Shown here one piece after another: positions 11,195 to 15,711 of a stretch of DNA of 23,206 bases; position 1 is the stretch's first letter; each line of letters opens with the position of its first letter. This DNA comes from a virus. The DNA is taken from positions 1 to 23,206 of IMG/VR virus record IMGVR_UViG_3300032331_000479, one strand, 5' to 3'. The notes under the pieces were generated by a model, which had not been told where the DNA came from, did not search any database, and worked only from the letters and a program-made list of their open reading frames with translations. The position numbers and the translations under genes were made by a program.

Positions 11195-12111
11195 CGTGGT
11201 GATTCTTTGTATCTTAATCCTTTAGGGTCAAACCAAAAAGAAAACTTACCTTCAAACTGATAATTACGCTGCTTCTGAACAAAGACCATAGCATCTGGAA
11301 TTTTCTTTAATTCATCTTCTGTCTTCTCATTGTTTTCTACTTCACGTTCTTTGTTTCTATTACGCCATACACATATGATGTTATCGCACAAATTTCTTAT
11401 GTGTGATGAGCCAAGAATATGAGTAGCATCTGGCACTTCTGATTCATCTGACATCTTTCTAGTATGTGCAACCAAGAATACATGAATTTCTAAATCTCTG
11501 CAAGTGACAGCAAGTCTATCTATAAACAACTTTTGCTTTTCATAATTGTCTTCTGAAATATCTGACATCTTCATGAGGGAGTCAATCACAAATACTTCTA
11601 CACCCAAAATGTGTTTACCCCAATACAATGTAGCAATCATATCTTCACTAGATGTTGAACCCATCTGGTCGTATATATATAATTTATCTTTTGCACGTTC
11701 ACAAAACTTTTCAATAAACTCATCTGTCGGTTCTGGTGAACCTAAAGTTTGTGTAATCATTCGTGCAAGTGTTAATACAGGTCTCATCTCTAAAGAACTT
11801 ACTAAACACTTTGTTCCTTGTGTCATTAAAGATAATATAACCTGTGACAGCCACATAGACTTACCATGACCAGACACACCTGTCAACACAGTCAACTCAC
11901 TAGGTCTTACCCTAAATGAATCTTCCGTTTTAATAAACCCCAATGTTTTACCACTATGTATTTCAGTATTAAAATATCGCAAGACATCGCCAGTAAATAC
12001 AGACGTATCCTTAACCTTAAACTCTGCATGAGCATATTCCTTTTGTTGGTAATAATCAGTAATAACAGACTGATTAACTGTTAATGATTCCATAGCATCA
12101 CCTAGATTCAT
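11191..12111 (-). CDS. DnaB-like replicative helicase (C-terminal ATPase domain)
   Basis: A 306-residue RecA-fold ATPase that would unwind DNA at the phage fork. It shows Walker A GVSGHGKS (78-85), the DnaB-type SSLEM strand (105-109), Walker B VFVIDSL (173-179) and the sensor-like VFLVAHTRK (211-219). There is an arginine-rich ILGSSHIRNLCDNIICVWRN region near 233-252. It is shorter than DnaB (about 470), lacking the N-terminal primase-interaction domain. Phage helicases of this kind are loaded by an O-like protein, encoded directly upstream (ATGA overlap). No primase was seen, so host primase is presumably used. Confidence 0.88.
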   Translation of the reverse strand: MNLGDAMESLTVNQSVITDYYQQKEYAHAEFKVKDTSVFTGDVLRYFNTEIHSGKTLGFIKTEDSFRVRPSELTVLTGVSGHGKSMWLSQVILSLMTQGTKCLVSSLEMRPVLTLARMITQTLGSPEPTDEFIEKFCERAKDKLYIYDQMGSTSSEDMIATLYWGKHILGVEVFVIDSLMKMSDISEDNYEKQKLFIDRLAVTCRDLEIHVFLVAHTRKMSDESEVPDATHILGSSHIRNLCDNIICVWRNRNKEREVENNEKTEDELKKIPDAMVFVQKQRNYQFEGKFSFWFDPKGLRYKESPR

Positions 12112-13309: not shown

Positions 13310-13712
13310 ATTAATGAAAGCAAGACTTAAGTTACAAACAGCAGACCTTAAAAAGTCTGGTCATAATAAGTTTGCTGGATACAAATATTTTGAGTTAGGA
13401 GATTTTTTACCTACCATTCAAGAAATTTGTAATGAAGTAGGTATTTGTGGCACAGTAACTTTTTATACTGACATTGCAATTTTAACTGTAACTGATATAG
13501 ATGATGCTACACAATTTATTGAGTTTAAATGTCCTATGTCAAGTGCAGCTTTAAAAGGTTGTCATGATGTTCAAAATCTAGGTGCAGTTCAAACTTACTT
13601 GCGTAGATATTTATGGACTAATGCTTTTGAGATTGTAGAGCATGATGCTATTGATGCTAGTGCAGGTGCAGTTATTAATATGAAAGATACTAAAGCGGAG
13701 GACTTTATTTAA
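13293..13712 (+). CDS. Erf-family single-strand annealing protein
   Basis: A 139-residue recombinase. The opening KLMKARLKLQTADLKKSGHN, followed by KFAGYKYFELGDFLP, is the ERF family hallmark (P22 Erf and many phages). A GAVQTYLRRYLWTNAFEI helix and strand follow. It anneals complementary single strands during recombination and genome circularisation. AGGAGA lies five bases before ATG 13293. A longer start at ATG 13230 (MSQQQHYD) also has a GAGAAGG upstream and would add 21 Gln-rich residues. The C-terminal domain of P22 Erf is missing, as in many short relatives. It is paired with the exonuclease gene by TAATG. Confidence 0.88.
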   Translation: MSIHSKLMKARLKLQTADLKKSGHNKFAGYKYFELGDFLPTIQEICNEVGICGTVTFYTDIAILTVTDIDDATQFIEFKCPMSSAALKGCHDVQNLGAVQTYLRRYLWTNAFEIVEHDAIDASAGAVINMKDTKAEDFI

Positions 13713-14314
13713 TGGAACAACGCACAGAAGAGTGGTTTCAAGCACGATTAGGAAAAGTTACAGCTAGTCGTGTTGCTGATGTGCTTTCCAAGATAAAAAC
13801 AGGAGAGTCAGCATCTAGACGCAATTACAAAATTCAGTTAGTAAGTGAACGGTTGACTGGAGAAAAGCAAGAGTCTTATATTAATCAAGCTATGCAAGAT
13901 GGTATAGATAGAGAAGTGTTTGCTAGAGATAGATACGTTCAGCAGTTTGGAGAAGTAGAAGAGGTAGGATTTATACAACATCCTACTTTAGAAGCAGGTG
14001 CTAGTCCAGATGGTTTAGTAGGTGAGGATGGATTACTAGAAATTAAATGTCCAATGGGAACTACACATACTGAAACATTAATGACGCAAGAAGTACCAAG
14101 CAAATACATACCACAAATACAATTTCAGTTGCGTTGTACAGGTAGAAAATGGTGTGATTTTGTAAGTTATAACCCTATGTTTCCGCAGCATCTTCAAGTA
14201 TTTGTTAAGCGTGTAGAAGCAGATGAAGTGTATCAAATGGAATTAGATAAAGAAATAGAAGCATTTTTATTAGAAGTGCAAACTATCATTGATAGATTAA
14301 AGGAGATAAAATGA
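13712..14314 (+). CDS. YqaJ-type (lambda exonuclease-like) nuclease
   Basis: A 200-residue 5'-3' exonuclease of the PD-(D/E)XK superfamily. Visible: RTEEWFQARLGKVTASRVAD at residues 4-23, GASPDGLV with Asp100, and GLLEIKCP with Glu110-x-Lys112, the metal-binding catalytic line. KYIPQIQFQLRCTGRKWCDF completes the YqaJ pattern. It resects DNA ends to expose single strands for the Erf protein, whose gene it overlaps by one base (TAATG at 13710-13714). The pair forms a complete two-component recombination system. It ends with an ATGA overlap to the next gene. Confidence 0.9.
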   Translation: MEQRTEEWFQARLGKVTASRVADVLSKIKTGESASRRNYKIQLVSERLTGEKQESYINQAMQDGIDREVFARDRYVQQFGEVEEVGFIQHPTLEAGASPDGLVGEDGLLEIKCPMGTTHTETLMTQEVPSKYIPQIQFQLRCTGRKWCDFVSYNPMFPQHLQVFVKRVEADEVYQMELDKEIEAFLLEVQTIIDRLKEIK

Positions 14315-14538: not shown

Positions 14539-14775
14539 ATGGCAGAACAAAAATATGATAATACAAACACATTTACATTATTTAAAAATGAGCAGGGAGA
14601 CAATCCTAAAAAACCAAACTATACTGGTTTAGCAAATATTGACGGTATTGAGTTTAGAATTGCAGGCTGGATTCGTGAAGGTAAAAGCGGTAAGTTTATT
14701 AGCGGAACTGTTCAATTAAAAGATGGTGATGTTAAACCTAAACAAGCAGCAATAAATGAGGATGTTCCTTTTTAG
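14539..14775 (+). CDS. SSB-like protein with acidic C-terminal tip
   Basis: A 78-residue protein starting MAEQKYDNTNTFTLFKNEQG with YTGLANIDGIEFRIAGWIRE and GKSGKFISGTVQL. This is a five-strand OB-like pattern seen in small phage single-stranded-DNA-binding-like proteins. It ends in NEDVPF, closely resembling the acidic DDDIPF tip by which bacterial SSB contacts partner proteins. It is far shorter than bacterial SSB (about 170). It follows the Erf and exonuclease genes with AAGGAG seven bases upstream, so coating the resected strand is a sensible role. The family assignment remains tentative. Confidence 0.65.
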   Translation: MAEQKYDNTNTFTLFKNEQGDNPKKPNYTGLANIDGIEFRIAGWIREGKSGKFISGTVQLKDGDVKPKQAAINEDVPF

Positions 14776-14785
14776 GAACACCCTC
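14758..14785 (-). terminator. Hairpin after the pqqA-like gene
   Basis: In the leftward RNA, GAGGGTGTTCC pairs with GGAACATCCTC around the loop TAAAAA (11-base stem, one G-U pair). It starts eight bases past the pqqA stop. No long U run follows, so it may be a weak terminator or an mRNA-stabilising hairpin. In the rightward RNA the same stem has one A-C mismatch and ends the SSB-like gene. Confidence 0.5.
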
Positions 14786-14793
14786 TCTAGGTA

Positions 14794-14865
14794 TTACTTG
14801 TTCATAACGTACATTGTAACTTCAAAGCCGAAACGCATTTCAGTTGCTGATGGTTTTGTCCACAT
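14794..14865 (-). CDS. pqqA: PqqA-like coenzyme PQQ precursor peptide
   Basis: A 23-residue peptide starting MWTKPSATEMRF and ending GFEVTMYVMNK. The family pattern, M-W-x-K-P then (E/D)-x-R-x-G-F-E-V-T-M-Y, is fully present. PqqA is the ribosomal substrate for PQQ. PqqE, with the chaperone PqqD, links the conserved Glu (here residue 15) to the Tyr (residue 19) in E-V-T-M-Y. Proteolysis and PqqB/PqqC then complete the cofactor of methanol and glucose dehydrogenases. Here pqqA stands alone, on the opposite strand to its rightward neighbours, with AAGGAG six bases before the ATG, its own promoter and flanking hairpins. The other pqq genes must come from the host. Both key residues and length (22-26 in the family) are intact. 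Confidence 0.9.
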   Translation of the reverse strand: MWTKPSATEMRFGFEVTMYVMNK

Positions 14866-14883
14866 GATTTGCTCCTTGTTTAT

Positions 14884-14909: not shown

Positions 14910-14938
14910 ATTATGCTGTTTTTGCGATACAAAAGCAA
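14910..14938 (-). promoter_or_regulatory. Candidate promoter of the pqqA-like gene
   Basis: On the minus strand TTGCTT (14938-14933) and CATAAT (14915-14910) are spaced 17 bases apart. The -10 matches five of six consensus positions and the -35 only three. The start would be near 14903, giving a leader of about 38 bases. A GCTGTTTTTGCGATACAAAAGC quasi-palindrome region overlaps the spacer (about 14915-14936). Confidence 0.5.
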
Positions 14939-14981
14939 GTATAAAACATTTATTTTACCCTAATGAAAATACGGAGACATT

Positions 14982-15344
14982 ATGGATTTTGATGATGATA
15001 TAGTAGATAATGATGACAATAGTCGCTTGACAGAATTACCAGAAGCCAAGTTATTATTAGCTATGCTTTACCAGACTATAGATGATGCTTTATATGTTCC
15101 CAAAAGAACCAAAGAAAATGCTACAGAAAAAACAGTGACATCTTTAAAATCTAAAAATAAATTAGCTTTACGAGACAAGATAGATGCTATACAATGGTTA
15201 TTTGATGATAATGATATTTATGATTTGTGTTGTGAATTAGCAGGAATGAATAAATATAATATTAGAAATATGATTATTGAAAAAATAGGTGCAGAACAAA
15301 TTCTTCCTTTAGTACATGGATTTTATCAACCAAATGGACATTAA
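14982..15344 (+). CDS. Hypothetical acidic phage protein, 120 residues
   Basis: A soluble protein with an acidic N-terminus (MDFDDDIVDNDDNSRLTELP), then LPEAKLLLAMLYQTIDDAL and AIQWLFDDNDIYDLCCELAG. A similar arrangement ('LPEA' helix, then 'WLF-(S/D)-D') occurs in uncharacterised phage proteins. No catalytic motif is present. ACGGAGA lies six bases before the ATG. It restarts the rightward gene series after the reversed pqqA and overlaps the hydrolase gene by 11 bases. The function is unknown. Confidence 0.6.
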   Translation: MDFDDDIVDNDDNSRLTELPEAKLLLAMLYQTIDDALYVPKRTKENATEKTVTSLKSKNKLALRDKIDAIQWLFDDNDIYDLCCELAGMNKYNIRNMIIEKIGAEQILPLVHGFYQPNGH

Positions 15345-15711
15345 TCATTTAGAATTAGACGTTGCTTGTTATGCTGCTGCTGTATATCATGAAGCAAATA
15401 CACAATCTTTAGAGGAAAAATTAGGTGTTATCAATGTCATTCGTAACAGGGTTAAATCTGGTCGTTGGGGTCGTGATGTATGTTCTGTTGTTTATGCTAA
15501 TGGTCAATTTATTGGGGTCACAGATGAAACTCATAAAGATGTGGATACAGAAATATTTCTTAAAACAGAACTTTTGGTACTTGATGCAGTTGTATTTAAT
15601 AAATATGCTAACCCAGTTGCAAATGCTTTATACTTTCATGATGATTCAATTCCATCGGTTAATAGATGGGGTAAAAAGAAAGTTAAAATAGGAAGGATGG
15701 TATTTTATTAA
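15334..15711 (+). CDS. SleB-like cell wall hydrolase
   Basis: A 125-residue protein resembling the SleB/CwlJ hydrolase_2 domain: CYAAAVYHEANTQSLEEKLG with the catalytic-type Glu in YHEA, then VINVIRNRVKSG and VCSVVYANGQFIG. These enzymes cut peptidoglycan glycan strands. No signal peptide is seen, so export would need a holin or occur after lysis. I chose ATG 15334 (MDINHLELD). An in-frame ATG at 15316 adds six residues, and neither has a clear ribosome site. The placement in the early or middle operon, away from the lysis genes, is unusual. A role in entry or late lysis is open. Confidence 0.78.
   Translation: MDINHLELDVACYAAAVYHEANTQSLEEKLGVINVIRNRVKSGRWGRDVCSVVYANGQFIGVTDETHKDVDTEIFLKTELLVLDAVVFNKYANPVANALYFHDDSIPSVNRWGKKKVKIGRMVFY

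Follow-up and report, generated by a model that had tools for sequence, protein, structure and literature searches.

A complete gene for PqqA, the precursor peptide of the cofactor PQQ, is carried by a 23,206-base virus record (the window, meaning the whole stretch of DNA that was analysed), which represents part of the genome of an uncultured phage. The analysis shows that the conserved phage pqqA constitutes a small unit of its own, comprising an operator, a -10 box, a ribosome site, the gene and a hairpin, without PQQ enzymes. We consider it likely that phage pqqA is an auxiliary metabolic gene that adds precursor under the control that governs the PQQ genes of the host; its expression and its effects on PQQ and fitness are inferred.

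Identification of the phage pqqA gene

The coordinates of the locus are summarized in Table 1. Translation of the gene gives MWTKPSATEMRFGFEVTMYVMNK, with the stop codon next. The peptide matches the Pfam PqqA model PF08042 with 43.3 bits (cut-off 21.1; E=3.2e-11; 19 of 19 model positions) and the NCBIfam equivalog model TIGR02107 with 40 bits (cut-off 20), which places it over the curated cut-off that defines family membership, and it contains the Glu-x3-Tyr pair that becomes PQQ (Glu15 and Tyr19). The phage gene does not lie in a pqqABCDE operon, an arrangement that is typical of PqqA but not required; orphan copies are usual in Methylophilaceae, so that membership is not excluded. Ribosome sites resembling AAGGAG occur in nearly all related loci, and the hairpin lies directly past the pqqA stop and extends into the final part of the convergent ssb. 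On the sequence evidence, the window gene was confirmed as a full, real PqqA-encoding gene and not a chance frame. The preliminary description had claimed a complete PqqA with both crosslinked residues on the strand opposite to its neighbours, and had proposed a search with PqqA family HMMs as a check. The strong matches to both models bear out the first part, and the gene is indeed antiparallel to the ssb, exonuclease and Erf genes on its 3´ side.

Table 1. Features of the pqqA locus in the window
Feature	Position	Strand	Basis or remark
pqqA, 23 codons + stop, PQQ precursor peptide	14794..14865	-	Translation, HMMs, tblastn, relatives
Ribosome-binding site AAGGAG	14872..14877	-	Sequence; 6 bases before the pqqA ATG
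Terminator-like hairpin, 12 pairs, 6 G-C	14758..14785	-	1 found vs 0.2 expected
Palindromic operator TCCGTATTTTCATTA	14961..14975	-	13.7 bits; matrix derived from host pqqA promoters alone
-10 box CATAAT (5/6)	14910..14915	-	Exactly 53 bases after the operator centre; host-type offset
Weak -35-like TTGCTT (3/6)	14933..14938	-	Sequence only; 17-base spacer to the -10 box
ssb, single-strand DNA-binding protein, convergent neighbour	14539..14775	+	PHROG 18154
YqaJ/RecE-like exonuclease, context	13712..14314	+	PHROG 149

The convergent neighbours encode a single-strand binding protein, a YqaJ/RecE-like exonuclease and Erf, and terminase, portal and DnaB-like helicase genes lie elsewhere in the window. 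These phage genes, together with the cultured phages described below, satisfy the standard for a virus-encoded gene as opposed to host contamination. No RNA family and no tRNA were found in the window. Two unlike cell-wall hydrolases are also present, one of the Hydrolase_2 type (15316-15711, plus strand) and a phage lysozyme (18331-18819, minus strand). The host of the window phage is most likely a Methylophilaceae bacterium, as inferred from its relatives and its PqqA type, because the terminase shares 91% identity with that of MW202481 and 72% with that of Venkman, a phage of OM43 strain H5P1.

pqqA in cultured phages and virus contigs

A tblastn search of 50,697 phage records returned 12 that match the window PqqA. 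Ten of them, at 77–100% identity and E 3e-8 to 6e-5, are the nearest relative of the window, MW202481, and nine records of cultured Methylophilales/Methylophilaceae phages: Venkman, P19250A, MEP301, MEP401, MEP402 and four Melnitz records. The carriers are diverse, including the T4-like Melnitz, the Zobellviridae MEP401/402, Venkman, P19250A and MEP301, and the neighbours of pqqA differ among them. Each complete phage genome has one pqqA. In all nine records of cultured phages, the match lacks a pqqA annotation; in MW202481 and Melnitz, an ORF is called on the opposite strand across it. Most known phages of these methanol-consuming bacteria turn out to carry pqqA, and in nearly all of them it had been overlooked. 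Presence in every known methylophage is not claimed, as MEP431-434 and Venkman EXVC038S are listed in the taxonomy without records surfacing.

The remaining two matches, both named 'Acinetobacter phage MD-2021a', were rejected as host DNA. The one that was opened (CAKLQF020000010.1) has ppk and a host pqqBCDE operon around the match and resembles a host chromosome, contamination being likely.

PqqE was absent from seven complete phage genomes, and a search of 238 pqqA-bearing loci gave neither PqqB nor PqqE nor XoxF. The preliminary description had held that the phage carries only the substrate peptide and that genes of this size may be widely missed, and had proposed a tblastn search of phage genomes. 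Both points stood: the enzymes were not found in the genomes and loci searched, and the cultured records leave the gene unannotated (P19250A is even stated to lack such genes; PMC7678222). The frame, Glu15 and Tyr19 are retained in the related phages.

The abundance of the gene among IMG/VR contigs was estimated with a codon-constrained pattern for W-x2-P-x7-G-x-E-V-T-x-Y. At least 120 contigs match, and all 120 peptides listed are short PqqA-type ORFs. A narrower pattern, TEMRFGF with Arg encoded by CGC, catches 10 of those 120 and itself gives at least 120, which suggests that Methylophilaceae-type pqqA is present in about 1,400 contigs or more, a rough extrapolation from lower-bound counts.

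A second, alphaproteobacterial type of PqqA (GLEIN[SC]YACAE) gives at least 120 further matches, a few of them belonging elsewhere; those examples that were scored exceed the PqqA cut-off. By extrapolation from a sub-pattern that has 47 matches and catches 8 of 120, this type would be present in about 700 contigs. No match to it was found in the annotated phage records, and the operator described below was found upstream of none of 59 such loci. Examples lie between terminase and portal (L263, 859-912, plus strand) and beside the major head protein (L319, 11258-11311, minus strand). About 160 loci of this type were collected, many of them on marine virus contigs (a further one is L315, 4568-4621, plus strand), and in the examples checked the gene is embedded among terminase, portal or head genes on the same strand. 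Two loci (L296, region 11346-11399, minus strand; L350, 3365-3418, plus strand) encode PqqA-like peptides with a long Asp/Glu/Ser/Asn repeat tail, about 60–70 residues in total; the one tested scores just over the PqqA cut-off.

Phage pqqA is conserved as a coding sequence

The first, codon-constrained pattern fixes Glu15 and Tyr19, so that conservation of these residues in its matches is meaningless and was disregarded. The set from the narrower TEMRFGF pattern was used instead, as that motif covers residues 8–14 only and excludes residues 15–19. Of the 120 matches listed, three are unrelated sequences that match by chance; the other 117 all keep Trp2, Pro5, Glu15, Tyr19 and the stop at codon 24. 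At the codons left free by the codon-constrained pattern, dN/dS is about 0.14 with synonymous sites near saturation, and variation is about fourfold higher at third codon positions (0.28) than at first (0.08) and second (0.065) positions. The PqqA frame is the sole frame open in all 122 distinct sequences. Judged by these substitution patterns, phage pqqA is under strong purifying selection.

A host-type operator precedes phage pqqA

K-mer enrichment upstream of pqqA revealed one element common to phages and hosts. A matrix built from 92 non-redundant host upstream regions only gives the palindromic consensus TCATGA-WWW-TCATGA, and the same motif was recovered de novo from random starts. The operator is present in 87 of the 92 host regions at 9 bits and in 74 of 109 (68%) non-redundant phage pqqA upstream regions at 8 bits, whereas random stretches taken from these contigs have it in 3.6% of cases and the regions preceding 2,651 other phage genes in 4.6%. 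With the threshold raised to 12 bits, the operator is 264 times denser upstream of host pqqA than elsewhere, and 66 times denser upstream of phage pqqA. About one third of the phage copies have no recognisable operator. The window operator is modest by itself, as two sites of at least 13.7 bits occur within the 23 kb.

The -10 box lies at fixed distances from the operator. In hosts, it follows the operator centre by 53 bases (within 1) in 77 of 84 promoters; relative to the transcription start, the operator is then near -65. The phage promoters show a different preference, with the -10 box at +30 in 33 of 60 (operator near -42) and at +53 in 14 of 60. The +30 spacing is phage-specific, since it occurs in only 1 of the 84 host promoters. 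Shuffled sequences give about 9 per spacing class in both sets, so that for the phage +53 class the excess over chance is only modest. Among the cultured phages, the offset is +54 in Venkman, +30 in MEP301 and +29 in Melnitz (TATAAG) and P19250A (TAAAAA), both imperfect; the geometry of MW202481 is less clear, and MEP401/402 have a distant operator site only. When an operator scoring 13 bits or more and, at the fixed offsets, a -10 box matching in at least 5/6 positions are both required, 15% of phage pqqA genes qualify and none of 2,651 control gene starts. Phage pqqA satisfies the standard for a host PQQ-gene promoter with class I or class II activator geometry, namely an operator over background and a -10 box at a fixed offset. 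A plain sigma-70 scan upstream of pqqA gave no gain over shuffles (9.40 vs 9.17) because the -35 element is weak, and the signal emerged only after alignment on the operator.

Class I and class II positions are known from activators such as CRP, and the operator offsets are close to these. The spacing is thus activator-like, and a weak -35 element would fit an activator-dependent promoter; the putative activator role rests on spacing. AgmR-type response regulators are thought to control pqq in Pseudomonas (PMC12997753), and that the regulator of this operator is of the AgmR type is a guess. Methylophilus methylotrophus has three exact sites, one ahead of pqqB, one ahead of pqqA and one ahead of a gene for a solute-binding protein that neighbours a PQQ dehydrogenase. 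The operator is not exclusive to PQQ genes, because the two exact sites in another genome (G002) precede thiS and a pentapeptide-repeat gene; one-mismatch sites precede four pqqA genes in that genome.

Two further observations concern the operator region. Host pqqA promoters can carry an extra TCATGA half-site about 20 bases past the main operator (for example at loci L137 and L138), near the position of the phage class II operators. In the window (14961-14990), the operator shares bases with the ribosome site (CGGAG) from which the divergent gene at 14982 would be translated, and binding at the operator might also affect that gene.

The host pathway

pqqA is present in 149 of 150 Methylophilaceae genomes, with 1–12 copies, and PqqE exceeds the cut-off in 140 of 150. 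The family therefore offers both a host homologue and the rest of the pathway, as expected for an auxiliary metabolic gene. The window PqqA is of the Methylophilaceae type: the peptides that occur most often in phages also do so in hosts, and several phage peptides are exactly the same as host ones, such as WTTPAATEMRFGFEVTMYVMNK (21 phage, 59 host). Methylophilaceae have been described with 3–12 pqqA genes and usually a single pqqBCDE set (PMC4109929). Two of the genomes examined here (G003 and G119) hold 12 pqqA genes. Tandem pqqA pairs about 200 bp apart were seen at six loci of OM43-type hosts, and tandem copies differ in their C-termini (..VCNR/K vs ..VMNK).

PqqA supply is reported to be rate-determining in Methylovorus MP688 (Ge 2015, cited in PMC11317620). 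However, this limit may not be general, because one pqqA of Methylorubrum extorquens AM1 is reported to be non-essential, its orphan copies being unexamined (cited in PMC11317620).

The preliminary description had allowed that its reading would fail with a weak HMM match, with loss of the frame or of the Glu/Tyr pair in related phages, or with a host that lacks the pathway. None of these was the case, and the earlier interpretation is supported overall.

Discussion

The proposed route is inferred at each step. During infection, host RNA polymerase and the activator of the host PQQ genes would transcribe phage pqqA. Host PqqD/PqqE would then crosslink Glu15 to Tyr19 of the phage peptide, a role for which the match to host peptides, identical or nearly so, is indirect support. 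The rest of the Pqq enzymes of the host would complete PQQ. Each replicating phage genome would add a copy of pqqA and so increase the supply of a component that Methylophilaceae keep multicopy; an extra gene copy may raise supply because each PQQ uses up one PqqA while the enzymes turn over. More PQQ would sustain the PQQ-dependent methanol dehydrogenase (XoxF/Mxa) and thereby supply phage production with energy and carbon. Enhanced methanol oxidation in infection remains an inference without expression, PQQ or fitness data.

A functional PqqA could instead be kept because PQQ serves as an antioxidant, binds lanthanides or is needed by other PQQ dehydrogenases, which we regard as unlikely though still worth considering. 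Which use counts cannot be read from the gene, and orphan pqqA copies have been suggested to be linked to lanthanide uptake (PMC11317620). The operator of M. methylotrophus, however, stands at pqqA, at pqqB and beside a PQQ dehydrogenase gene, and methylotrophy is obligate or nearly so in the hosts. In such bacteria, methanol dehydrogenase is the main known user of PQQ.

The other readings fit the data poorly. With the substrate alone encoded, a competitive role is conceivable, in which the peptide would bind PqqD/PqqE as a decoy or inhibitor so that PQQ synthesis is blocked or diverted and host metabolism shut down; a decoy would not need the two crosslinked residues, yet both are kept in every true match listed, and many phage peptides do not differ from those of hosts, which makes this role very improbable. 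Equally slight is the chance that pqqA is a non-adaptive passenger, either a host promoter-gene cassette recently recombined into the phage or host DNA in a virus contig. The peptide and operator are host-like, IMG/VR contigs can include host DNA, and the Acinetobacter 'phage' matches are host operons. This reading is largely refuted by the presence of pqqA in cultured, complete phage genomes of unlike families, by strong purifying selection despite near-saturated synonymous sites, by the phage-specific +30 spacing and by the lack of PqqB, PqqE and XoxF on the loci searched. Use of the opposite strand, whether for an ORF or for an antisense RNA spanning the locus, is scarcely credible: annotators call antisense ORFs in MW202481 and Melnitz and 85% of sequences leave one antisense frame open, but the PqqA frame alone is open in all, variation falls at its third codon positions, and the ribosome site, operator and -10 box are all on its strand.

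The idea of a phage pqqA is not new; its breadth and host-type promoter appear to be. PqqA was reported in 2020 in the Lake Baikal virus population VP_266, likewise a methylotroph phage for which the same role was proposed (PMC7678222). That was a single report, and the representative genome also has a methanol dehydrogenase (PMC7678222); here, by contrast, no XoxF, PqqB or PqqE was found on the loci examined, and pqqA is widespread and has a host-type operator. The same study states that the isolate P19250A has none of these genes (PMC7678222), whereas pqqA was found here at 28085-28153 on its minus strand. The orphan pqqA genes of Methylophilaceae (PMC4109929) share the peptide, the operator and the arrangement as a single gene apart from pqqBCDE, but their operator is at +53 to the -10 box, whereas most operator-bearing phage copies are at +30. 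Virus-encoded pqqA, pqqD and pqqE were described from reservoir sediments in 2026 (PMC13188868); there pqqA is counted as a phosphate-solubilising gene, and we found there no methylotroph link and no promoter or peptide analysis. Our literature search, outside which most subscription journals and preprints fall, found no report of pqqA in cultured methylophages, of its breadth or of the operator. The single-subunit auxiliary metabolic gene psbA of cyanophages similarly replenishes a component that the infected host consumes fast. Unlike psbA, PqqA is neither an enzyme nor a subunit of a complex but a 23-residue substrate peptide, used one per cofactor.

A broader proposal seems to us evenly poised between right and wrong: that pqqA is common and nearly unseen in phages of PQQ-dependent bacteria, and that the methylophage cassette runs on an undescribed host PQQ activator with its operator shifted to about -42, a position rare in hosts. 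If so, viral pqqA would respond to the host's own methanol signal, perhaps with higher expression than the host copies. The alphaproteobacterial type, in this view, instead occupies phage structural operons.

The findings indicate that a very small gene, below the usual cut-offs of gene callers, can be a common trait of phages of OM43 and LD28, a major methanol-consuming group, and be overlooked even in cultured isolates. They connect phage infection with marine and lake methanol oxidation in a way that can be tested, for which cultured pairs are at hand (Venkman and Melnitz on H5P1; MEP301). The shared operator provides a route to the unidentified regulator of the PQQ genes of Methylophilaceae, and phage pqqA would be a case of a phage running a viral gene through host metabolic control.
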